A DNA stretch of 64,000 nucleotides from Rhizobium sp. L51/94 (lineage in GTDB: Bacteria > Pseudomonadota > Alphaproteobacteria > Rhizobiales > Rhizobiaceae): NCBI RefSeq assembly GCF_019355555.1, contig NZ_CP072141.1, forward strand, positions 2,040,001 through 2,104,000. Direction: 5' to 3'. The stretch's first letter is position 1; each line of letters starts with the position of its first letter. The translations under genes were made by a program, and so were the position numbers. This document shows, piece after piece, positions 21,472-33,661 of the stretch. The notes under the pieces are model-generated. The model ran no database searches. It saw nothing but the letters and a program-made list of their open reading frames with translations, and was not told the origin of the DNA.

Positions 21472-23085
21472 TCACTCTGCGGCGATCTTGCCGGCCATAT
21501 GGCGGTTCTTCATCAGCTTGTAGACGACCGAATCCGTCAGTGCTTCGAACGAGGCGTCGATGATGTTTTCGGATACGCCGACCGTCCACCAGCGCACCCC
21601 GTCGCTATCGTTCGATTCGATTAGCACCCGGGTGATCGCCTCGGTGCCGCCATTGAGAATACGCACCTTGAAGTCGGCGAGCACGAGGTCCTCGATCTCG
21701 GCCTGGTATTTGCCGAAATCGCGGCGCAGCGCCAGGTCGAGCGCGTTCACCGGCCCGTCTCCCTCCGCCACCGACATGATCGTCTTGCCGTCGATGATCA
21801 ACCGCACCACGGCCTCGGAGACGGTCTTCACCCGCCCGTGCGAATCGAAGCGCCGCTCGACCATCACCCGAAAGCCGTCGATCGAGAAGAATTCGGGGAT
21901 GGTGCCAAGTGTGCGGCGGGCCAGGAGCTCGAAGCTGGCGTCGGCACCCTCATAGGCATAGCCGAAGGATTCCCGTTCCTTGACGATCGAGATCAGTCGA
22001 TCGAGTTTCGGGTCGTCCTTGGAGACGGCGATACCGCGCCGCTTCAGCGCATTGATGAAATTTGCTTTTCCGCCCTGATCCGAGACCATCACCTTGCGAA
22101 AATTGCCGACGCTTTCCGGCGGCACGTGCTCGTAGGTGCGCGGATCTTTCAACAGCGCCGAGGCATGGATACCCGCTTTGGTCGCAAAGGCCGAACCGCC
22201 GACATAGGGTGCCTGGTGGTTCGGCGACCGGTTCAGCAGTTCGTCGAAGGCATGCGACAGACCGGTCAGCCCAATCAGCCGTTCGCCGTCGATGGCGGTT
22301 TCGAAGCGGGTGTTGTAGGCGCTCTTCAGCGCCAGGGTCGGGATCAGCGTCACCAGATCGGCATTGCCGCAGCGCTCGCCGAGCCCGTTCAGCGTGCCCT
22401 GGATCTGCCGCACACCGGCCTCCACGGCTGCCAGCGAATTGGCCACCGCCTGGCCGGTGTCGTTATGGGCATGGATGCCGAGCGCCGTGCCGGGCACGCC
22501 CTCGGCAATAACAGCCTCGACGATGGCGCGGATTTCCGATGGCTGCGTGCCGCCATTGGTGTCGCAGAGAACCACCCAGCTGGCCCCTGCCGCGTAGGCA
22601 GCCCTGGCGCAGGCCAGCGCATAACCGGGATTGGCCTTATAGCCGTCGAAGAAGTGTTCGCAATCGACCAGCGCTTCCTTGCCGGCGCCGACAGCCGCCT
22701 TGACGCTCTCGGTGATACAGTCGAGATTTTCCGCGTTCGAGATCCCGAGTGCGACCTCGACATGGTAGTCCCAGCTCTTGGCGACGAAACAGATGGCATC
22801 GCCGCTCGCCTGCAGCAGGCCCGCAAGCCCCGGGTCGTTGGACGCCGAGACGCCGGCCCGCTTGGTCATGCCGAAGGCGACGAAGGACGCATTTTTTGTG
22901 CGCTTCTGGCCGAAAAAGGCCGTGTCGGTCGGATTGGCGCCGGGATAGCCGCCCTCGATATAGTCGAGCCCGAAATCGTCTAGCAGGCTCGCAATAGCGA
23001 TCTTGTCCTCGACCGAGAAATCGACGCCGGGGGTCTGCTGGCCGTCGCGCAGCGTCGTGTCGAAAAGATAGATGCGCTCTTTCAT
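21472..23085 (-). CDS. cimA: Citramalate synthase
   Basis: The enzyme condenses pyruvate and acetyl-CoA to (R)-citramalate, giving a threonine-independent route to isoleucine. The 537-residue protein has the HMGL-like TIM barrel with FDTTLRDGQQTPGVDFS near the N-terminus, the metal-binding GIHAHNDTGQAVANS stretch and NGLGERCGNADL. A C-terminal LeuA-type regulatory domain follows, for feedback by an amino acid. The start at 23085 overlaps the preceding GFA stop as ATGA; 23097 is an in-frame alternative. Assignment to CimA rather than 2-isopropylmalate synthase rests on the overall sequence. Confidence 0.88.
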   Translation of the reverse strand: MKERIYLFDTTLRDGQQTPGVDFSVEDKIAIASLLDDFGLDYIEGGYPGANPTDTAFFGQKRTKNASFVAFGMTKRAGVSASNDPGLAGLLQASGDAICFVAKSWDYHVEVALGISNAENLDCITESVKAAVGAGKEALVDCEHFFDGYKANPGYALACARAAYAAGASWVVLCDTNGGTQPSEIRAIVEAVIAEGVPGTALGIHAHNDTGQAVANSLAAVEAGVRQIQGTLNGLGERCGNADLVTLIPTLALKSAYNTRFETAIDGERLIGLTGLSHAFDELLNRSPNHQAPYVGGSAFATKAGIHASALLKDPRTYEHVPPESVGNFRKVMVSDQGGKANFINALKRRGIAVSKDDPKLDRLISIVKERESFGYAYEGADASFELLARRTLGTIPEFFSIDGFRVMVERRFDSHGRVKTVSEAVVRLIIDGKTIMSVAEGDGPVNALDLALRRDFGKYQAEIEDLVLADFKVRILNGGTEAITRVLIESNDSDGVRWWTVGVSENIIDASFEALTDSVVYKLMKNRHMAGKIAAE

Positions 23086-23549
23086 GGGAATGGCCATTCG
23101 GTCGTATCGTGATCGGGATGTTGATGGGGGCGTCGATTGAGAATTTCCTCGGGCGAGGCGGTGCTGGAGATCGACGGCAGATGCGGCTGCGTATCGAACC
23201 AGGGCACCTTGCTGCTCGTCCAGTGCTGCCCGTTCGGCTCAACTTTGGCCGGATTATCCAGGCTGCCGATCGATATGTCGATCTGATCGCTGCCAACAGC
23301 CTTGAACGTCAGGGGAGTGCCGCATCGCGAGCAGAACCCGCGCTCCGCAGCCTCTGAACTTCTATAAGAAGCGGGCAGGCCTCTCGACCACTCGAGATCG
23401 TCGGTGGCGACGGTGAAAAACGGCCACGAGATCGATCCGACGGCCTTTTGGCACATCCGGCAGTGACAGATCGCCTGGTGGCTGATCGCCCCCAGTACCC
23501 TGAAGCGGATCGCGCCGCATTGGCAGCCGCCAGTTAGAATGTCTCGCAT
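23082..23549 (-). CDS. GFA-family zinc protein, copy 1
   Basis: The 155-residue protein of the GFA/CENP-V fold has the zinc-binding cysteine sets GGCQCGAIRFRV, CHCRMCQK and CSRCGTPL. The founding member, Gfa, was reported to speed the reaction of glutathione with formaldehyde; most family members are uncharacterised. It ends with the tail HPDHDTTEWPFP, which is shared with the other two copies nearby. It lies between pip (22-base gap) and cimA (4-base overlap), so it is part of one operon. Its catalytic role is not shown. Confidence 0.9.
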   Translation of the reverse strand: MRDILTGGCQCGAIRFRVLGAISHQAICHCRMCQKAVGSISWPFFTVATDDLEWSRGLPASYRSSEAAERGFCSRCGTPLTFKAVGSDQIDISIGSLDNPAKVEPNGQHWTSSKVPWFDTQPHLPSISSTASPEEILNRRPHQHPDHDTTEWPFP

Positions 23550-23570: not shown

Positions 23571-25001
<1,431 letters not shown>

Positions 25002-25009
<8 letters not shown>

Positions 25010-25487
25010 GCTTCGCCTCCGCTGGCCATGTGGCCGTATCGTGATCGGGATGCTGGTAGGAAACGATGTCCCCCAGGAACGGCAGGGCAGCGATGTCCTC
25101 CTCCGTCGGGTGCCCCGGTAGCTCCTGAAGATGGTCCACGAAGGCAATCTTGGCCTCGGTGCCATATTGCAGCTTGGGTGGCAGAACGGCAGGATTATCG
25201 AATGCGCCGGCGGCAAGAGCGATGCCATCGGGCGCTTCATAGGTCAACGGCGTGCCGCATTCGTCACAAAATCCGCGAGCAACGATATTGGACGACTGAA
25301 AGCGCTTCGGCGTCCCACGTGTCCACTCCAGTACGGCGCTCCGAGTGGAGACCAGCGGTGCGTAATAGCCACCGAAGGCCTTCTGGCACATTCGACAATG
25401 ACAGATCGAAACGTCCTCGAGCGATCCCTCGACTCGGAAGCGCACCGCACCGCATTGGCAGCCGCCGGAAAGCGTGACGTTGGTCAT
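25002..25487 (-). CDS. GFA-family zinc protein, copy 3
   Basis: The 161-residue GFA/CENP-V protein is first in the overlapping run. It carries the cysteine motifs GGCQCGAVRFRV, CHCRMCQKAFGG and CDECGTPLTY. The start at 25487 gives MTNVTLSGGCQCG; a GGGAGG lies about six bases before it. The C-terminus YQHPDHDTATWPAEAKHD carries the same short tail as copies 1 and 2. The three copies look alike over their whole length, consistent with local duplication and then divergence. The promoter presumably lies at 25488-25560. Confidence 0.9.
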
Positions 25488-25561
25488 GGCGTGCCTCCCG
25501 TTGAGAGAGCGGTGGGGCACAAGGCGTCTGAGGTGCGCATTTTTGGAGGGATGGGCGTATG

Positions 25562-25780
25562 CGGCACGTTGCCCCCCTCTGTCACTGCGTGACATCTCCC
25601 CCACAAGGGGGGCGATTGGCTGGCGGCACGGTCTTGCGCTCCAGCTATCCTGGGAGTTTTCAGCAGCTTCTCTTTCAGATCAAGAGAGCGGAATGAAAAG
25701 ACAACGTCGTCGCCGCACCCAACCAATCTCCCCCCTTGTGGGGGAGATGTCACCGAAGGTGACAGAGGGGGGTATGCCGC
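25562..25780. repeat. Large inverted repeat of palindromic type
   Basis: Two arms of about 45-50 bases, at roughly 25572-25617 and 25722-25772, are near-perfect inverted copies. Each contains two small palindromes: a G/C run pair around CCCACAAGG and a GTCAC...GTGAC hairpin. The arms flank about 100 bases. The sequence type (CCCCCTCTGTCAC with CATCTCCCCCAC) resembles intergenic mosaic repeats of rhizobia. The element fills most of the 307-base gap between cysS and the GFA operon, lies just past the cysS stop, and may end its transcript. The remaining bases of the gap hold no gene that I can see. Confidence 0.8.
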
Positions 25781-25794
25781 GGCAGCTGCAGGTA

Positions 25795-27237
25795 TCACCG
25801 CTTGATCTCCCAAGTGGTCACCCGCTCGCCTGTCGCGGCGTCCTTGCCGTCCTTCAGCTGCACACCCTTGGCAGAGAGCTCGTCGCGAACCTTGTCGGCA
25901 TCGGCGAAATTCTTTGCCTTCAGCAGTTCGAGGCGCATCTGCACCAGCGCATTGATCGCCGCCGTCAGATTTGTTGAACTATGCTGGGAAGAAACCTTTG
26001 GGTTGTCAAAGATTAGACTGCTGCTGCGAGTTCGGAATTGGGCAAAAAAGGCGGTGATGTCGATGCCCAGCCATTCTAAGGAGGCTCGAAGGGCAGCCGG
26101 ACTACTTTTTCTTAACGAGTGGAGTTCCGCAATCGCGCCAGAACTATCAAGGTCTCTCGCCCATGCGGCGATAAACCTCTGACTTGGCCTGCCAGCTGTC
26201 GAGTTGCCAACGGTCTTTCCCCACGTAAAGAGCATGTGCTCCGCTTCCTCCAGCCGCTTCACCGAAAAGTCGATCGGCTCGCGGTAATGCGTCATCAGCA
26301 TCGCCAGCCGCAGAACTTCGCCCTGCCATGTCCGTCCGCCGAGCTTGTCTGTTTCCAGTAGCTCGGCGATGGTGACGAAGTTGCCGTCGGATTTCGACAT
26401 CTTGCGGCCTTCGACCTGCAGGAAGCCGTTGTGCATCCAGACATTGGCCATCACGGACGTACCGTGGGCGCAGCGCGACTGAGCGATCTCGTTCTCATGG
26501 TGCGGAAAGATCAGGTCGAGGCCGCCGCCGTGGATGTCGAAGACGTCGCCGAGGTACCGGCGGCTCATCGCCGAGCATTCGATATGCCAGCCCGGCCGGC
26601 CACGGCCCCAGGGGCTGTCCCAGCCGGGTTCGTCGGCATCGGACAGTTTCCACAGCACGAAGTCGCCGGGGTTCTTCTTGTGAACATCGACTGCGACCCG
26701 GGCGCCGGCCTGCTGCTCGTCGAGATTTCGCTTCGACAGCTGGCCGTAATCCGCCATCGACTTCGTGTCGAACAGCACCTCGCCCGCCGCCGCATAGGCA
26801 TGGCCTTTCTCCACCAGCGCCTCGATGATCGAAATCATCTGACCGATGTTGTCAGTGGCGCGCGGCTGCACGGTCGGCTCGAGGCAGCCGAGCGCCATCA
26901 CATCCTTCTGGTACTGGTTGTCGGTCTTTTCCGTGACCAGCCGGATGGCAGCATTGAGCTCCATGCCTGGATAGTCGCGAAGGGCGCGGGCGTTGATCTT
27001 GTCGTCGACATCAGTGATGTTGCGCACATAGGTGACGTTCTCCGGCCCATAGACCTGCCGGAGCAGCCGGAACAGCACGTCGAAGACGATAGCCGGGCGG
27101 GCGTTGCCGATATGGGCGAAATCGTAGACCGTCGGGCCGCAGACATAGAGACGCACATTGCTGGCATCGATCGGCACAAACACGCTCTTTTCGCGCGTCA
27201 GGGTATTGTAAAATTTCAGCTCAGGCGTCCCGCCCAT
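25795..27237 (-). CDS. cysS: Cysteine-tRNA ligase
   Basis: The class I aminoacyl-tRNA synthetase charges tRNA-Cys. In 480 residues it shows the zinc and substrate Cys in [13 protein letters not shown], the HIGH variant HIGN, the second zinc set in GWHIECSAM and [11 protein letters not shown], and KMSKS in [11 protein letters not shown]. The C-terminal anticodon-binding region ends normally with [23 protein letters not shown] 27237 has GGGAG at good spacing; GTG 27243 is the alternative. The stretch at about 25970-26230 has visibly lower GC and unusual residues ([17 protein letters not shown]), yet the frame is intact. Confidence 0.95.
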
Positions 27238-27468
27238 GTCCACTCTCCCAGATGCACGATCGAAAAAAATCGTCGCGGCCGGCGGACCGGGCGTTTCTCA
27301 TCTTTGCGCAATGGGGAGACGAAAACGGCCAGGCCAGCGGTGCGCTAGCGAATAATTTTCCGGCAGATGCTGCAAATAGCTGTTTTCATGGCTGGCTTTA
27401 TGGCGCGACACGGGATTTTGGTCAAGAGCAGCGGAGGCATCGCGGATGTAGTCTTGCGATTTATTGCC

Positions 27469-28089
27469 TCATGCCTGACGCTTCCACTCATGCATGGCCT
27501 CGATTACTTCGACAGTCGGATACTCCCTGATATCCTCCTCGGACGACCCGGCTGCGAGTTCGCGTTTCCAATACCATTCCTGAAAAGCCAGATATTCGCC
27601 GAGTATCTTGGAGGGGCTTACCCTTGCCGTTGAGGGTTGAGCGACGAGCCACGTTCGAGCATGCCTGACGGCTTTTGCGAAGTCGCCCTGGTGTGCTTGG
27701 ATGTCCCAGCCTGCGATGTCGGACAGCGACTTTTGATAGTCGAAGCGCTCCTGTTCGAGGATCAAAATGACCTTTTCCGACAACAGGGAATTTCCGAACC
27801 GCTTGCAGGCATGATCCATTCCGAGTTCGAACGGCATATTCATGCGAGAGTATTGCCCGATAGAGGTAGCCTGGCAACGGCTCAGATCATGGATTCCGTA
27901 CTTGGAACCCTTGATAAGTTCAACGATCTTTTCGAGGCGGCTTGCCGCGTTGTCACGGTTTTCTGGGGCCAATCGAGGAAAGAATCCGAGAAAAACCACG
28001 CAGAATGCAATGGCTTGGAGGATCGGCGCAAAGGCTTCGTCAAACGGACAATTGATAAAAACCGAGCGTTCGAACGGAGGTTGCGCCAT
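27469..28089 (-). CDS. TIR-like / nucleoside deoxyribosyltransferase-like protein
   Basis: The 206-residue protein begins MAQPPFERSVFINCPFDEAF, a first beta strand and loop like those opening TIR and nucleoside 2-deoxyribosyltransferase folds. A helix follows, then RLEKIVELIKGSKYGIHDLS, and then MNMPFELGM, where E88 sits at the position of the catalytic glutamate of these folds. After that come strand KVILILE and the motif DYQKSLSDIAGWDIQAHQGD, which I associate with a widespread uncharacterised prokaryotic family. NAD or nucleotide glycosidase activity is an inference. The gene starts one base after the DUF2188 stop. There is no membrane segment. GC is lower than in flanking genes. Confidence 0.75.
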   Translation of the reverse strand: MAQPPFERSVFINCPFDEAFAPILQAIAFCVVFLGFFPRLAPENRDNAASRLEKIVELIKGSKYGIHDLSRCQATSIGQYSRMNMPFELGMDHACKRFGNSLLSEKVILILEQERFDYQKSLSDIAGWDIQAHQGDFAKAVRHARTWLVAQPSTARVSPSKILGEYLAFQEWYWKRELAAGSSEEDIREYPTVEVIEAMHEWKRQA

Positions 28090-28090
28090 T

Positions 28091-28315
28091 CTAACGTTTC
28101 GATTGAGCGTGGTTTTCGCCAAACGAGTTCCGCTCGCGAATTCGTCCGTCTTCGCCGTGAATGTAAAGTTCGGTTCCGTAGTTTCGAGCGATTGCGGTCG
28201 CGGCCTTGATAGCTTCATCTTGAGTGGCGTGGACACTTGTAGAACGCGCCGAGCCCGCCTTTCTGACGCTCCACTTTCCCGCTTGGGGCACAACATGCTG
28301 GGCTCTGCTTGTCAT
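28091..28315 (-). CDS. DUF2188 domain protein
   Basis: The 74-residue protein matches the DUF2188 pattern: HVVPQAGKWSVRKAGSARS, then a helix with THR/GLN-DEA-IKAA, then GTELYIHGEDGRIRERNSFG. Family members are small, beta-alpha-beta in outline, widespread and without known function; they often sit in accessory regions. The start at 28315 gives MTSRAQHVVPQ; the frame stays open to 28402 without homology. It immediately precedes the TIR-like gene (TAG, one base, ATG), so the two must be translated from one mRNA. Confidence 0.82.
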   Translation of the reverse strand: MTSRAQHVVPQAGKWSVRKAGSARSTSVHATQDEAIKAATAIARNYGTELYIHGEDGRIRERNSFGENHAQSKR

Positions 28316-28418
28316 CGCACGATCCTCAATTCCGTGGTCGACCACGTCGGGCCAGTGAAAGCGATGTCGCTTTATACCCGGCAATGCAATGTTAGCATGC
28401 AACCCCGCTCGCGGCCAC

Positions 28419-29159
28419 CTATTCCGGCAACCGGTAATCCACCAGCCTGTTCTCCCGCACCACGAACAGCTTGCCCGTCTCCGTTACATCGGGGCCGACC
28501 AGCCCCATGATGACCTCGGCTACATCGCGGGGATGCTGCACGGTCTCGGGGTCTTCTCCGGGCATCGCCAGTGCCCGCATGGCAGTGCGGGTGGCGCCCG
28601 GGTCGAGGCTGGTGATGCGCAGCGGTGTGCCTTGTGTTTCCCCGGCCCATGTGCGGGCCAGGGCTTCGACGGCCGCCTTGGAGGCGGAGTAGGGGCCCCA
28701 GAAGGGCCGGCATTTATGGGCTGCGGAAGACGACAGGATGACGGCGCGACCGGCGTCTGAGCGCACCAGCAGCGGTTCGACGGAGCGGATCAGCCGCCAC
28801 GTCGCGGTGACGTTGATCGTCATGACCTTCTCGAAGACCTTCGCCTCGACATGGCCGATCGGCGAAATTGTCCCGAGCACACCGGCATTGGCAACGAGGA
28901 TATCGAGCTTGCCCCAGCGCTCGAAGATCGAGCCGCCGAGCCGGTCGATGGCATCCATGTCGGCAAGGTCGAAGGGCACCAGCGTTGAACGTCCACCGAC
29001 AGCCTTGATCGCGTCGTCCAGTTCTTCCAGTCCGCCGACGGTGCGGGCGCAGGCGATCACATGCGCGCCGGCCTTTGCCAGCTCCAGAGCGGTGAAATAT
29101 CCGATGCCGCGCGAGGCGCCGGTGACCAGGGCAATCTTGTCCTGCAGGTTGACGCTCAT
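28419..29159 (-). CDS. Short-chain dehydrogenase/reductase
   Basis: The 246-residue SDR protein has the cofactor motif TGASRGIG, the NAG motif in ILVANAGVLG, the active-site Ser in VILSSSAAH and YxxxK in YSASKAAVEAL. The Arg after the first cofactor strand (ACARTVGG) suggests NADP(H). It resembles SDRs often found beside purF in rhizobia. The substrate is unknown. The start at 29159 (MSVNLQDKIALVTG) is preferred to 29180. It lies 87 bases downstream of purF and may be co-transcribed with it. Confidence 0.9.
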   Translation of the reverse strand: MSVNLQDKIALVTGASRGIGYFTALELAKAGAHVIACARTVGGLEELDDAIKAVGGRSTLVPFDLADMDAIDRLGGSIFERWGKLDILVANAGVLGTISPIGHVEAKVFEKVMTINVTATWRLIRSVEPLLVRSDAGRAVILSSSAAHKCRPFWGPYSASKAAVEALARTWAGETQGTPLRITSLDPGATRTAMRALAMPGEDPETVQHPRDVAEVIMGLVGPDVTETGKLFVVRENRLVDYRLPE

Positions 29160-29246
29160 GATACCGAGTTCCGTTCGCAATTTTATGGGGCGATAATATG
29201 CCCCATAACAGACTATCGGTCAGTCCATCAAGCGCGGCTCTCGGCC

Positions 29247-30743
29247 TCAGCCGTTGCCGGCAAGCACCGATAGCTTGCGGACATTGTTGATGCTTTCCCG
29301 ATCGAGCAACCGGGTCGGATAGTCGCCGGTGAAATAGTGGTCGGTGAACTGGGGTGCAACGGGATCGCGCGGCTCACCGCCGACAGCCCGGTAGAGGCCA
29401 TCGATGGACAGGAAGGCGAGGCTGTCGGCGCCAATGAAGGCACACATGGCTTCGAGGTTCTCATACTGGTTGGCCAGCAGCTTGTCGGCGTCAGGCGTAT
29501 CGATGCCATAGAAATCCGGGAAATAGATCATTGGGCTGGCAACGCGAATGTGCACCTCGCTGGCGCCGGCCTCGCGGATCATCTGGACGATCTTCACAGA
29601 TGTCGTGCCACGGACGATGGAATCGTCGACGAGCACGACGCGCTTGCCTTCGAGGATGGCACGGTTGGCGGAGTGCTTCAGCTTGACGCCGAAGGCGCGG
29701 ATCGACTGGGTCGGCTCGATAAAGGTCCGGCCGACATAGTGGTTGCGGATGATCCCGAGCTCGAACGGTATGCCGCTCGCCTGCGCGTAGCCGATTGCCG
29801 CCGGCGTGCCGCCATCCGGCACGGGAACGACGAGGTCGGCCTCGACCGGCGCTTCGTTGGCCAGATTGATACCCATGTTGCGACGGGCGACGTAGACGTT
29901 GCGGCCGCCGACGACAGAGTCCGGGCGCGCGAAGTAGACATATTCGAACAGGCACAGCCGCTCGGGCTCGGGCTCGGGCTGATCGGCCTTGCGCGAATCG
30001 ATGGTGATAGAGCCGTCGCTCTGGATCTCGCAGATGATGACTTCGCCGTTCTCGACGTCGCGGATATATTTCGCGCCGATGATGTCGAGCGCGCAGGTCT
30101 CCGAACAGAAGATCGGCTTGCCATCGAGTTCGCCCATCACCAGCGGCCGGATGCCGATCGGATCGCGGGCGGCAATGAGTTTGGTACGGGTCATCGCCAG
30201 CATCGAGTAGCCGCCTTCCATCTGGCGGATAGCATCGATGAAGCGGTCGGAAGAGGAAGCATGCTTGGAACGAGCGATCAAGTGCAGCACGACTTCGGTG
30301 TCGGACGTCGACTGGCAGATGGCGCCGTCGGCAATCAGCATGCGGCGCATTGTCAGACCGTTGGTGAAGTTGCCGTTATGGGCAATAGCGATGCCGCCGA
30401 CTTCCAGTTCGGCAAACAGCGGCTGGACGTTGCGAAGGATCGTCTCACCCGTGGTCGAGTAGCGGACATGGCCGATGGCGCGGTCGCCGGGCAGGCGGGC
30501 TAGGGTTGCCGGATCCGTATAGTGGTCCCCGACCAGACCCATGCGGCGCTCCGAATGAAAGCGCTGACCATCGAAGACGACCATGCCGGCTGCTTCCTGG
30601 CCGCGGTGCTGCAGGGCGTGCAGGCCGAGCGCCGTCAGGGTCGCAGCGTCCGAGTGTCCGAGGATGCCGAACACGCCGCACTCTTCGTGCAGTGTGTCGC
30701 CGTCGATGTCGTTATCGATTTCAGGGGATGGTGACAGGGTCAT
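29247..30743 (-). CDS. purF: Amidophosphoribosyltransferase
   Basis: PurF performs the first committed step of purine synthesis, making phosphoribosylamine from PRPP and glutamine. The N-terminal nucleophile is Cys22 in HEECGVFGI, which implies removal of a 21-residue propeptide. The Ntn glutaminase domain (LHALQHRGQEAAGM) is followed by the phosphoribosyltransferase domain with the PRPP loop VVLVDDSIVRGTTS. The full 498 residues are normal. cvpA lies just upstream on the same strand, the classic cvpA-purF order. Confidence 0.97.
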   Translation of the reverse strand: MTLSPSPEIDNDIDGDTLHEECGVFGILGHSDAATLTALGLHALQHRGQEAAGMVVFDGQRFHSERRMGLVGDHYTDPATLARLPGDRAIGHVRYSTTGETILRNVQPLFAELEVGGIAIAHNGNFTNGLTMRRMLIADGAICQSTSDTEVVLHLIARSKHASSSDRFIDAIRQMEGGYSMLAMTRTKLIAARDPIGIRPLVMGELDGKPIFCSETCALDIIGAKYIRDVENGEVIICEIQSDGSITIDSRKADQPEPEPERLCLFEYVYFARPDSVVGGRNVYVARRNMGINLANEAPVEADLVVPVPDGGTPAAIGYAQASGIPFELGIIRNHYVGRTFIEPTQSIRAFGVKLKHSANRAILEGKRVVLVDDSIVRGTTSVKIVQMIREAGASEVHIRVASPMIYFPDFYGIDTPDADKLLANQYENLEAMCAFIGADSLAFLSIDGLYRAVGGEPRDPVAPQFTDHYFTGDYPTRLLDRESINNVRKLSVLAGNG

Positions 30744-30900
30744 GGCTGAAGGCCTTTGCTCTCACGGGGTTCGGGCAGCGCTGGGGCTGGGATCCAAAAT
30801 AACTGAAAATCCGGCCGGGCGATATGCCTGGCCGGATAGGGTCGTCGGTGCCGATCAGATGGCGATGCCAGCCAAACGGGTCAAGCCTGGTGACGCAGCG

Positions 30901-31542
30901 TCAATTGTTCGTCGCCGGAGCGGCAGGTGTCGTCGTCGGTGCCGCTGGCGAAGCCGGTGCGTCGTCCGATGGGGCTGCATCGCTCGGTGCGGCCGCGTCA
31001 TCGTTCAACTGCTGCTTTTCCGGCTGGATCTTGTCGATAACGTTGGTCCGGATCATCTGCGCGAATTTCTCCGGCAATGCAGCCTCCAGCTTGACCACCA
31101 TCGAATCGAGGAAAGGCTTGGACTTGGCATTGTTGACCCAATCGGGGCGGTGCGGCTCGTCGACGAGCCAGTTCCAGAAGGCAACGGCGACGACCAGCAG
31201 CAGCACGCCACGGGCGGCGCCGAAAAGGAAACCGAGCGTGCGGTCGAGCGCGCCAATGCGGCTGTCGATGATGAAATCGGCGATCTTCATAGTGATGAAC
31301 GAGATGATGATCAGCGCGATGAGGAAGACGACTGCGGCCGAGCCAACGATGGCGATACGATCGTCATCTGTGTAGTGCTTGGCGTATGGCACCAGCTTCG
31401 GGTAAAGATAGTAGGCCGCAACGGCCGAGCCGCCCCAGCTGACGATCGACAGAATTTCGCGGGAGAAGCCGCGTACCATGGCGAGAACGGCGGAAAACAG
31501 CACGACGCCGATAACAATACCGTCGAAAATCGTAATGGGCAT
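30901..31542 (-). CDS. cvpA: CvpA family inner-membrane protein
   Basis: The 213-residue protein has four N-terminal membrane helices, beginning ITIFDGIVIGVVLFSAVLAM with the family's conserved RGFSREILSIVSW. It ends in an Ala/Pro/Asp-rich tail (PSDAAPSDDAPASPAAPTT) that is probably disordered. CvpA was named for colicin V production; in several species it affects envelope stress tolerance. It is 157 bases upstream of purF on the same strand and 85 bases downstream of radA. Confidence 0.93.
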   Translation of the reverse strand: MPITIFDGIVIGVVLFSAVLAMVRGFSREILSIVSWGGSAVAAYYLYPKLVPYAKHYTDDDRIAIVGSAAVVFLIALIIISFITMKIADFIIDSRIGALDRTLGFLFGAARGVLLLVVAVAFWNWLVDEPHRPDWVNNAKSKPFLDSMVVKLEAALPEKFAQMIRTNVIDKIQPEKQQLNDDAAAPSDAAPSDDAPASPAAPTTTPAAPATNN

Positions 31543-31627
31543 CTATACTTTACTCCAAGACTTGCCATGGGCGCCATGGCTATCGTCTGCCTGAATGCGT
31601 CTTGCCTCGTCGCCAGAGCGAAAAGGT

Positions 31628-33031
31628 TCAGTCCTCGTCTTCCGTCGGCCGCAGTGCGCCCTTCGATCCGGCGACCCTGACCACCATGTCGGTCAGGCTG
31701 TCGATCTCGTTCCAGCGGCCGCCGCTGCCTTTCGGCAGTTCAGCCGAGCCGGATGGTAGGAGCGCTTGCGCAAAGCCCAGCTTCTCGGCTTCCTTCAGGC
31801 GTTGTGCCGTATGGCCCACGGGCCGCACGGCGCCAGAAAGACTGACTTCGCCGAAATAGACGCAATCGGCGGGAAGGGCAATACCGGCAAGGGATGAAAC
31901 CAGTGCAGAGGCCACCGCAAGGTCGGCCGCCGGCTCCGAAATCCGGTAGCCGCCGGCGATGTTCAGGTAGACATCGTGGCTGCCAAGCCGCACGCCGCAG
32001 TGGGCCTCGAGCACCGCAAGGATCATCGATAGCCGCGACGAATCCCAGCCGACGACCGCGCGCCGTGCTGTTCCGAGCGACGTCGGCGCCACCAGCGCCT
32101 GTACCTCGACGAGGATCGGCCGCGTTCCCTCCATGCCGGCAAAGACGGCAGCACCTGGCGATTTGGAGTTGCGCTCACCCAGAAAAAGCTCTGACGGATT
32201 GGCGACTTCACGAAGCCCGATATCCGACATCTCGAAAACGCCGATCTCGTCCGTCGGGCCGAAGCGGTTCTTGACGGTGCGCAGGATACGGTAGTGATGG
32301 CCACGGTCGCCCTCGAAGTAGAGCACCGCATCGACCATGTGCTCGACGACCCGCGGCCCGGCGATCTGGCCATCCTTGGTGACATGGCCGACCAGCACCA
32401 TGGCGGAACCTGTCTGCTTGGCAAAGCGGATCATCGCCTGCACGCCGGTGCGCACTTGGGTGACGGTGCCGGGCGCCGATTCGGCAAGCTCGCTCCACAG
32501 GGTCTGGATGGAATCGATGATGACCAGATCCGGTCGCTTGCCATCGGCGAGCGTCGCCAGGATATCCTCGACATTCGTCTCGGCCGCCAGCATCACGTCT
32601 GTATCGGCTGCCTTCAGCCGCTGTGCCCGCAGCCGGATCTGGGCAACCGCCTCTTCGCCCGAGACGTAGACGATCTTGTGGCCTCGTCTGGCAAGCGCGG
32701 CTGCCGCCTGCATCAGCAGCGTCGACTTGCCGATGCCCGGATCTCCGCCGACCAGCACTGCCGAGCCACGCACAAAGCCGCCGCCCGTCGCCCGGTCGAG
32801 TTCGGAAATGCCGGTATAAATCCGCGGTGCTTCCTCGATTTCGCCGGACAGTGCCACCAGCGTCACCGCTCTGCCCTTCTTCGGCACGCGGCCCGGACCC
32901 GAACCGATGCCGCCCATCGGGTCTTCCTCGACGATGGTGTTCCACGCACCACAGGATTCGCATTTTCCGGCCCAGCGATTGTGGATGGTGCCGCAGTTCT
33001 GGCAGATGAATTGAGTTCTGGCCTTGGCCAT
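31628..33031 (-). CDS. radA: DNA repair protein RadA
   Basis: RadA is a RecA-like, hexameric DnaB-type motor that drives branch migration during recombination. The 467-residue protein has a C4 zinc finger (CQNCG...CESCG, residues 10-29), Walker A GGDPGIGKSTLL, Walker B LVIIDSIQT, the RadA-specific motif VKNRFGPTDEIGVFEM, and a C-terminal Lon-protease-like domain (GVRLGSHDVYLNIAGGYRI). Its start overlaps the stop of the toxin gene as TGATG. In related genomes alr lies directly upstream; here a toxin-antitoxin pair intervenes. Confidence 0.97.
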   Translation of the reverse strand: MAKARTQFICQNCGTIHNRWAGKCESCGAWNTIVEEDPMGGIGSGPGRVPKKGRAVTLVALSGEIEEAPRIYTGISELDRATGGGFVRGSAVLVGGDPGIGKSTLLMQAAAALARRGHKIVYVSGEEAVAQIRLRAQRLKAADTDVMLAAETNVEDILATLADGKRPDLVIIDSIQTLWSELAESAPGTVTQVRTGVQAMIRFAKQTGSAMVLVGHVTKDGQIAGPRVVEHMVDAVLYFEGDRGHHYRILRTVKNRFGPTDEIGVFEMSDIGLREVANPSELFLGERNSKSPGAAVFAGMEGTRPILVEVQALVAPTSLGTARRAVVGWDSSRLSMILAVLEAHCGVRLGSHDVYLNIAGGYRISEPAADLAVASALVSSLAGIALPADCVYFGEVSLSGAVRPVGHTAQRLKEAEKLGFAQALLPSGSAELPKGSGGRWNEIDSLTDMVVRVAGSKGALRPTEDED

Positions 33032-33294
33032 CAGGGAATGCTTTCGGTAAAATCTTCTGGTGCGGTGTCCTCGTGTGCATGGATCACGCGCACCACCCGG
33101 AGCGCAATATCACTGACAACGAAGTAAAACACTCTCTGTCGATAGGAAAAGCTGCGGAGGCCGGGTCTGAGATGGTCGCGGCCAACACCGGTCAGGCCAA
33201 GCCTCGCAAATGACTGCGCCTTCCGCTCAATGTCGAGAATGAATTTGTTTGCTGCGGGAGAGTTGCTCTCCGCGATATAGAGATACTGGCCCAT
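33031..33294 (-). CDS. RelE/ParE-type toxin
   Basis: The product is 87 residues from ATG 33294, with the ParE/RelE-family core LYIAESNSPAANKFILDIE, GLTGVGRDHLRPGLRSFSYR and the last strand ALRVVRVIHAHED. In such families the toxin blocks gyrase or cuts mRNA. The coding signal extends upstream: the frame back to about 33348 reads TIKRRRLIWSGTARADL, the normal first strand and helix of this family. The real protein is therefore probably about 105 residues and starts at a non-standard codon (CTG 33348) overlapping the antitoxin 3' end. The ATG form would lack the first strand. Confidence 0.82.
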   Translation of the reverse strand: MGQYLYIAESNSPAANKFILDIERKAQSFARLGLTGVGRDHLRPGLRSFSYRQRVFYFVVSDIALRVVRVIHAHEDTAPEDFTESIP

Positions 33295-33337: not shown

Positions 33338-33613
33338 TTAATGGTCAGTCTCCGGCTTGGACTGCTGGGACGCGGCCATTTGCTGGATATCTTTCAGAAG
33401 TTCTTCAGCCGTGTCGTACTCGTAAACGCGGCCATTTTCGATGTCATCGATGCCCTCCTGGATCAGTCCCCGCAATCTCGCAACTTTCTCGTCACGTTTG
33501 CGCAGGAGCGCGAGCGCTTCGCGCAATACAGCGTCTGCATCCTGATAGGCGCCCGTCTCTACCTGCTCGTCAACGAAGGCCTGCTCTCTCGAGCCCAGTC
33601 GAATGGTCGCCAT
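33338..33613 (-). CDS. ParD-like antitoxin
   Basis: The 91-residue protein starts MATIRLGSREQAFVDEQVE, a ribbon-helix-helix DNA-binding strand and helix as in ParD/CopG antitoxins, then YQDADAVLREALALLRKRDE. It ends in an acidic C-terminal tail that would wrap the toxin. ATG 33613 has GGGAG six bases away; ATG 33619 directly abuts it. The gene precedes the toxin on the same strand, and the toxin frame begins within its last codons, so tight coupling and autoregulation by the pair are expected. Confidence 0.85.
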   Translation of the reverse strand: MATIRLGSREQAFVDEQVETGAYQDADAVLREALALLRKRDEKVARLRGLIQEGIDDIENGRVYEYDTAEELLKDIQQMAASQQSKPETDH

Positions 33614-33661
33614 AGCCATCTCCCAATGTTCTGCTTTTATACCGCAGCCTCCCTTGGAATG

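Follow-up and report, generated by a model that had tools for sequence, protein, structure and literature searches.

A TIR-like gene and the DUF2188 gene directly upstream of it form a recurrent, sporadically distributed pair in a Rhizobium genome

The TIR-type fold is known mostly from immunity. Among the described proteins with such a domain, CAP12 and PycTIR are NAD-depleting effectors of CBASS and Pycsar; NAD depletion by PycTIR is reported in PMC11224242. Toxin-antitoxin pairs of the RES-Xre/NatRT type, which degrade NAD, consist of two genes, one for a putative NAD-consuming enzyme and one for a small partner (PMC11535050). Here, a pair consisting of a small DUF2188 gene and a gene for a TIR-like protein, called T below, was analyzed in a window of 64,000 nucleotides, the whole stretch of DNA that was studied. 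In the open-access literature, which leaves most subscription papers uncovered, no description of the DUF2188-T pair was found; DUF2188 was never mentioned together with TIR, the label PDC-S16 was absent, and neither a TIR protein paired with a small protein nor CBASS preceded by a small gene was recognised there as a match for this pair.

The features of the locus are as follows.

28091..28315, minus strand: DUF2188 gene, 74 residues plus TAG, first gene of the pair (Pfam PF09954, E 4.7e-24; PADLOC PDC-S16)
28090..28090, minus strand: one-base gap from the DUF2188 stop to the T start, junction TAG-a-ATG
27469..28089, minus strand: gene T, 206 residues, TIR-like, with a predicted TIR/N-glycosidase fold at residues 5-156 and extra C-terminal helices at 159-205
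27826..27828, minus strand: codon of Glu88 of T, in the motif RxNMPxELG, proposed as catalytic and conserved without exception in the 87 homologues aligned
27427..28417, no strand: approximate interval of the insert, present in both searched genomes of the species and absent at the DNA level from 37 of the 40 genomes of the genus, in which the flanks match

Both open reading frames and the junction were as first described, with the same coordinates and lengths, and the one-base gap suggests translational coupling. The order along the plus strand was cysS, T, DUF2188, an SDR gene (28419-29180) and purF, all of them minus-strand genes (neighbours named by eye). The preliminary description had placed the pair between cysS and purF, which was correct on the cysS side; on the purF side the SDR gene intervenes. 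The GC content of positions 27469-28315 was 0.538 in comparison with 0.610 for the whole window, in agreement with the lower GC first reported, and an equally low value was found in 0.6% of overlapping 847-nt segments, that of the pair itself counted. The neighbours of the pair are ordinary genes. No tRNA was found within positions 24000-32000 of the window, and a search for direct repeats of at least 12 nt on either side of the insert gave none. The sequence CGTGGTCGACCACG, a 14-nt palindrome, lies 17 nt before the DUF2188 start in the window. Among the 92 upstream regions compared, 3 reached p <= 0.05, the number that chance gives, and the palindrome was therefore not taken as a feature common to these loci.

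The occurrence of T was then compared among related genomes. A T homologue was present in 3 of 61 genomes (this genome and 60 relatives), namely this genome and two others of its genus at 38% identity, where T lay on contigs other than that of the cysS-SDR junction. When 40 genus genomes were searched with the DNA of the locus, the complete insert was found in this genome and one other of the same species, both flanks matched without the insert in 37, and one genome (G003) gave no match at all. Among the cysS-SDR junctions listed, 12 measured 27-181 nt, one 482 nt and at least 12 about 0.85-1.03 kb; in many of this last group a gene was seen that by eye resembles a GH25-type lysozyme. T was found in 14 of 397 genomes of the order and on 17 of 72,556 plasmids. 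No T was found among 50,697 phage records; seven viral contigs carried it, four of them with a DUF2188-like gene upstream. The presence of T in relatives was thus sporadic and not fixed in the manner of a housekeeping gene, a possibility ruled out by its occurrence in 3 of 61 genomes and by the 37 of 40 genus genomes with flanks and no insert.

In the T tree, the rows nearest to the window T were from Erythrobacteraceae, Sphingomonadaceae and Sphingobiaceae, not the Rhizobiaceae copies. The window T grouped with nine Sphingomonadales-type rows (one a Caulobacter bin) at a support of 94/86, below the mark for firm support, and elsewhere in the tree taxa of different phyla were intermixed. In the DUF2188 tree, which included two wrong-fragment rows (L278 and L236), the window copy paired with a Hyphomicrobiales row, Filomicrobium (L020), at 98/74. 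The donor lineage is unsure because the DUF2188 tree points to Hyphomicrobiales and the T tree to Sphingomonadales at less than firm support. Together, the two trees are compatible with horizontal transfer, and the pair was probably acquired horizontally.

A scan of genome contigs gave at least 515 relatives of T, and the 80 that matched best were retained. A DUF2188-like gene was directly upstream of T on the same strand in all 80 of these best matches, which is a figure for the closest homologues only and therefore not one for a random sample. The gaps between DUF2188 and T were -8 to +30 nt, most commonly +2, in the 79 loci that were scored with a DUF2188 model iterated on the same loci; in the 80th, from Neorhizobium (L051), T was frameshifted and DUF2188 intact. 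A three-sequence DUF2188 model untrained on these loci matched 78 of the 80 at E <= 0.1, some weakly, and missed L083 and L089. The gap to T was -4 to +9 nt in 76 of 92 cases. The T-tree rows from the best 80 loci came from 14 phylum-level groups, as named in submitter titles and with many metagenome bins. Among 398 evenly sampled genomes of the window's phylum, T occurred nine times in eight genomes, with DUF2188 directly upstream in five cases; four copies, from a sister clade, lacked it. Within up to four ORFs per side, no other neighbour was shared by more than 6 of 79 loci. The adjacency of T and DUF2188 is beyond chance, and the recurrence in all 80 best loci and in 5 of 9 cases of the even sample means that the pair is not peculiar to this site.

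Both genes are under purifying selection, with a median dN/dS of 0.13 in 38 pairs of T and of 0.15 in 91 pairs of DUF2188. The distance matrices of T and DUF2188 were correlated with r 0.65, in comparison with 0.19 for the best of 999 permutations, host kinship being left uncorrected. The ordinary genes around the locus, and the occurrence of DUF2188 elsewhere without T, are what would be expected if the two were chance or hitch-hiking neighbours with no joint function. However, the coupled adjacency recurs across phyla, and with purifying selection on both genes and matching divergence this explanation is scarcely credible. The DUF2188 proteins of T operons had a pI above 8 in 81 of 81 cases (10.3 for the window copy), while the pI of T was below 7 in 89% of 81, so that the charges of the two proteins are opposite. 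In two Sinorhizobium plasmids that were opened, T was broken into separate frames and DUF2188 was intact; a broken DUF2188 before an intact T was not seen in the 80 loci.

Direct family assignment of T failed: the window T gave no match at E <= 10 in Pfam, NCBIfam, PADLOC or PHROGs, and sequence searches of the PDB with T gave chance-level matches only. The AlphaFold2 model of T, built with 87 sequences, had a mean pLDDT of 92.1 and a pTM of 0.90. The best solved structure found for it by Foldseek was SPARTA TIR-APAZ (E 2.4e-4). Alignment of T residues 5-156 by VIA-align gave Z 13.4 for DNPH1, 13.0 for the SPARTA TIR domain, 12.3 for SfSTING (20% identity) and 11.9 for MilB. The predicted fold agrees with the layout resembling TIR and nucleoside 2-deoxyribosyltransferase (NDT) proteins that had been proposed for T; because the DNPH1/MilB and TIR scores tie, the reaction of T cannot be read from the fold alone.

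Profile comparison separated these families. The hhalign comparison of T with PF10137, the TIR domain of CAP12/PycTIR, gave 78.2% and E 1.8e-5 with all 26 rows, and 86.4% with 21 of 26 rows, five having been dropped by a motif filter. The controls gave 0.3% for the reversed profile and 0.6% for the best of 20 column shuffles; the NDT profile gave 0.6% (8-row alignment) and TIR_2 gave 0.2%. Direct PF10137 matches at E <= 1 were found in 5 of 87 T homologues, the best at 0.0089, and one T homologue matched the unrelated DUF6500 at a lower E of 0.0017. At the profile level, T is thus related to the CAP12/PycTIR TIR domain. The invariant positions in the T alignment include N13, D17, H67, D68, R82, N84, E88, S123, D124 and D129. 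E88, which had been singled out earlier, was invariant in all 87 homologues and aligned with the Glu of PF10137 and with that of the NDT profile; among the PF10137 rows, RxNxxxE was present in 25 of 26 and PSDxxG in 16 of 26. E88 may therefore be the catalytic residue of T.

Membership of T in the NDT family was rejected, with a profile similarity to PF05014 of 0.6% and no Pfam match. A broader proposal, that T is a nucleotide N-hydrolase resembling DNPH1, MilB or NDT that works in salvage or sanitation and that the pair is metabolic, is most unlikely. It would account for the Z scores of DNPH1 and MilB and for the ELG motif of T, which is aligned with that of NDT, but not for the similarity of 0.6% to the NDT profile in comparison with 78-86% to CAP12/PycTIR, nor for the patchy distribution of T in the order (14 of 397), nor for a partner, DUF2188, that is common to immune operons.

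The window DUF2188 matched PADLOC PDC-S16 at E 8.6e-30 and 4.1e-29 and phrog_3220 at E 4e-24. In the even sample, DUF2188 was present in 58 of 398 genomes and adjoined T in five places. The downstream gene was read at 25 strong DUF2188 loci of this sample. It was T in five of them, a CBASS phospholipase effector in one (L227; PADLOC 1.8e-139) and multiubiquitin in one (L235; PF14452, 2.2e-14). Four others had a gene for a protein of 386-478 residues from a family without a name (45-85% identical to L233), L228 had one for an unnamed protein of 69 residues, and in L241 Ku followed after a gap of 76 nt; 12 loci had another gene or nothing close downstream. The two members of the 386-478-residue family that were scanned gave no match in Pfam or PADLOC.

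DUF2188 loci on plasmids were also investigated, 20 of them being picked by hand for diversity from 390 records (269 from Klebsiella). DUF2188 was directly before a CBASS-type phospholipase and nucleotidyltransferase in 6 of the 20 (one phospholipase annotated in two pieces), a set that includes near-identical CBASS operons, since three loci share one DUF2188 protein accession. PADLOC identified the nucleotidyltransferase of L277 as a CBASS cyclase (2.5e-111) and the phospholipase of L281 as a CBASS effector (1.4e-95). DUF2188 was before canonical TIR genes in 2 of 20, with gaps of 85 and 59 nt, and these two TIR proteins matched the TIR_2 model, not T. The following genes were multiubiquitin/E2/ThiF in 1 of 20, the 69-residue family in 5 (L278 and four more with 38-86% identity to it) and, in 2, a gene for a protein of 209-212 residues with a DNA-ligase domain (L279 by Pfam; L297, 53% identical to it); 4 of 20 had another gene or none close by. 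Genes for XRE with PIN/VapC or for HTH with ImmA/IrrE were seen beside several DUF2188 loci without T. The new observation here is that DUF2188 is the first gene not only before T but also before CBASS, canonical TIR and multiubiquitin genes. With such varied genes downstream, several immune operons seem to have DUF2188 in common as their head gene, and its position before CBASS, TIR and multiubiquitin genes suggests that it regulates or senses in a more general way.

A corrected DUF2188 tree was built with 109 rows, in which L278 and L236 had been mended and six long T-context rows dropped. Of the 34 DUF2188 copies outside T contexts, 32 fell into two groups (26 and 6 rows) that held no T-operon copies, and two stood alone. 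In the 26-row group, copies from CBASS, TIR and 69-residue contexts were interleaved across well-supported branches. The T-operon copies clustered apart, with 3 label changes in comparison with 29 in shuffles. DUF2188 was found in 21 phage records, of which 18 were streptococcal. Two of these phage loci were opened; in the first DUF2188 was near a CI-like repressor and an integrase, and in the second, in a satellite, it was near a Cro/CI-type regulator. A tentative possibility is that DUF2188 is a general trigger or brake that heads unrelated immune operons, with nucleic-acid binding probable and with phage copies that silence host modules or guard the prophage. Such a shared switch would sense a common signal of infection or DNA damage and set free the effector encoded behind it, whichever that is, and the DUF2188 genes of temperate streptococcal phages and of a satellite would be its phage-borne versions.

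For the pair in the window, we give about even chances to its being a self-contained, horizontally moving immune module of the abortive-infection or toxin-antitoxin type, in which T is the effector and DUF2188 the brake or trigger. T would be a stand-alone TIR-like effector that cleaves NAD(+) or a related nucleotide through Glu88. The small basic DUF2188 protein would be made just before T, probably by translational coupling, and by presumed physical contact it would either keep T inactive or license its activation, the direction of control being read in both ways here. T would be released by phage infection or another intracellular disturbance, and active T would stop the growth of the infected cell, by which the pair may protect against phage. 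A model in which DUF2188 and T are fused by read-through had a pTM of 0.74, and no interface between the two is claimed because the model comes without an inter-domain error estimate. In a BFVD search with the fusion model, a CAP12/Pycsar-type TIR protein was second (E 3.9e-4); the fold search of the fusion gave only T-domain rows among its 50 and none for DUF2188. The preliminary description had inferred a two-gene defence or toxin module with DUF2188 as regulator or antitoxin. The predicted fold, the recurrence of the pair and its sporadic presence favour the module, while the antitoxin role becomes one possibility among others, since DUF2188 is also found before effectors unrelated to T.

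According to the main rival explanation, DUF2188 makes no contact with T. It would be a sensor or a regulator, acting on translation or by binding nucleic acid, and a common first gene that times expression, with T as one of its cargoes. The plasmid loci with DUF2188 before CBASS-type (6 of 20), canonical TIR (2 of 20) and multiubiquitin/E2/ThiF genes (1 of 20) would fit such a regulator, as would the CBASS phospholipase and multiubiquitin behind DUF2188 in 2 of the 25 strong loci, the interleaving of CBASS, 69-residue and TIR-context copies in the tree, the strongly basic character of all T-operon copies, and the XRE with PIN/VapC or HTH with ImmA/IrrE genes beside several DUF2188 genes. However, the T-operon copies cluster apart in that same tree (3 label changes against 29 when shuffled), 76 of 92 gaps lie between -4 and +9 nt, as expected of partners that are made together, and no conserved palindrome was found upstream of DUF2188. 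We regard this explanation as rather doubtful.

The relatives of T without DUF2188 were examined for another small partner. This sister clade has about 31-49% identity to T, and a small ORF of 58-138 codons ended near the T start in 16 of the 17 loci read, which is weak evidence because short ORFs arise by chance; in L152 the likely small partner was the end of a longer frame. The small ORFs were strongly basic (pI 9.8-11.9 in the six computed), and by eye many had in common either a stretch resembling ATGRFV or, at the C-terminus, the helix motif FT..EI..AI. None of the eight that were scanned was named by Pfam (best E 0.11). In L093, L095 and L109, DUF2188 was joined with a stretch of the sister-clade type, and Pfam found DUF2188 in both joined proteins that were scanned (L095, 9.4e-14; L109, 2.2e-8). 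These ORFs and the joined DUF2188 loci suggest that the small partner of T may be constant in presence and variable in type.

Such small ORFs, weakened as they are by chance occurrence, would also suit a classical type II toxin-antitoxin or addiction pair in which DUF2188 is a dedicated antitoxin and has no role in phage defence. The small upstream gene, the coupling, the opposite charges and the few loci with a broken T and an intact DUF2188 are in line with this explanation. Nevertheless, we consider it unlikely: DUF2188 is present in 58 of 398 genomes and adjoins T in only 5 places, its position upstream of unrelated effectors argues against a dedicated inhibitor of T, no conserved operator-like palindrome was found, and the fold of T is of the TIR type, which is familiar mostly from immunity.

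We also analyzed the genes around the pairs, whose proximity to defence islands had been raised earlier. PADLOC on 148 of the 151 called nearest neighbours matched 56 families, among them those of ThsA/ThsB, of MzaA and of a type IV restriction enzyme, in comparison with 8 families, one of them PycTIR at 2.4e-6, on 142 of the 209 random genes called in 20 stretches of seven genomes; many of the matches were to generic ATPases, several families model the same gene, the counts are by family and not by protein, and the two sets differ in taxonomy. The families that Pfam matched most often among the neighbours were general, such as ABC transporters and ATPases. Among ten neighbours opened singly, seven had no PADLOC match at 1e-5, two were ATPase-like, and that of L012 was a type IV restriction enzyme (8.8e-59). 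With general Pfam families so common, the linkage to defence genes is real in places and not general: the count of 56 against 8 families speaks weakly for it, and the ordinary genes at this locus and the general families elsewhere speak against it.

T represents a widespread TIR-like family with at least 515 relatives, and since four family libraries did not recognise the window T, searches based on them would miss it. If the uncharacterised DUF2188 is a common switch, one protein of 74 residues would make the activation step of several systems testable together, and the pair is small enough for direct cloning, mutation and assay.

In comparison with known systems, the pair shares single features with each of several. 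Its two-gene layout, in which a putative NAD-consuming enzyme is paired with a small protein, is that of the RES-Xre/NatRT pairs, although the folds are unrelated on both sides. Type II toxin-antitoxin pairs are alike in that the small partner is encoded directly upstream of T and coupled to it. Thoeris ThsB is also a small TIR-type protein from a short operon; however, the window T had no match to any ThsB model at E <= 10, and ThsA/ThsB-type genes were found in 1-2 of 148 neighbours and are not the constant partner of T. DNPH1, MilB and NDT have the same predicted fold as T and an aligned ELG motif, whereas no profile-level relation of T to the NDT family PF05014 was found (0.6%). The window DUF2188 matches the profile of PDC-S16, a PADLOC phage defence candidate that we take from the -S in its label to be a single-gene one, but T is in no PADLOC model. 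The TIR domain of SPARTA is the best Foldseek match of T (E 2.4e-4; Z 13.0), although the 206-residue T has no room for APAZ and no recurrent partner except DUF2188. T differs from CAP12/PycTIR in being a stand-alone protein of 206 residues with no room for a STING or cyclic-nucleotide-binding domain, in having no recurrent cyclase neighbour and in falling below Pfam significance; it is like CAP12/PycTIR in its profile match over the domain (78-86%), in the Glu of RxNxxxE that is aligned with E88, and in the SDxxG motif.

The cysS-SDR junction, which holds the DUF2188 gene and the downstream gene for the TIR-like protein (T) in the window, was compared with that of genus relatives. A gene of about 250 aa, GH25-type lysozyme-like by eye, occupied this junction in many of them (loci L121, L122, L125, L129 and others, from other genomes), and in other relatives the junction measured just 27-181 nt. 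A perfect 14-nt palindrome, CGTGGTCGACCACG, was located at window 28333-28346, upstream of DUF2188 and 17 nt from its start; the palindrome was not conserved in relatives. Elsewhere in the window, we noted two small ORFs between radA and alr, and three adjacent paralogues carrying a GGCQCGA(V/I)RFR motif, which by eye belong to a glutathione-dependent formaldehyde-activating-enzyme-like family.

33031-33294, minus strand, and 33338-33619, minus strand: small ORF pair, by eye like RelE/ParE toxin and ParD antitoxin
23082-23549, 24533-25240 and 25002-25604, minus strand: motif-bearing paralogues

Variant and broken forms of the pair were also present. DUF2188 was fused to the short helix-type stretch known from sister-clade partners in three loci, and the upstream DUF2188 was intact in three loci in which T was interrupted or frameshifted.

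L093:3666-3977, L095:2553-2864 and L109:1073-1456: DUF2188 joined with the helix-type stretch
L005:8001-9368 and L010:5001-6341 (Sinorhizobium plasmids) and L051:6001-6629: broken T, intact DUF2188

DUF2188 occurred in 21 phage records (L284, L285 and 19 more), which come from temperate phages of Streptococcus and from a satellite. Of the two phage loci opened, L284 and L285, one had the gene close to a CI-like repressor and an integrase, and the other had it close to a Cro/CI regulator. The phage DUF2188 is possibly a phage-borne counterpart or a prophage guard.

Other genes were found downstream of DUF2188. A family without a name (386-478 aa) lay 12-15 nt downstream in four genomes (L233, L236, L239, L244); two members, when scanned, had no match in Pfam or PADLOC, and the family is a candidate further effector.

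L233:1726-2883, plus strand, and L236:274-1458, minus strand: members of this family

A Ku gene followed DUF2188 by 76 nt in L241 (L241:1787-2776), and DNA-ligase-domain ORFs lay downstream in L279:3215-3847 and L297:2727-3365, which suggests a link between DUF2188 and double-strand break repair.

In six plasmid loci (L277, L281, L286, L287, L288, L291), DUF2188 was the first gene, directly followed by a CBASS-type phospholipase and nucleotidyltransferase and adjoined by divergent XRE and PIN/VapC-type genes. Plasmid loci L278, L289 and L290 carried a similar cassette with a 69-aa protein in place of the CBASS-type genes, and it appears as if the cargo behind DUF2188 had been exchanged.
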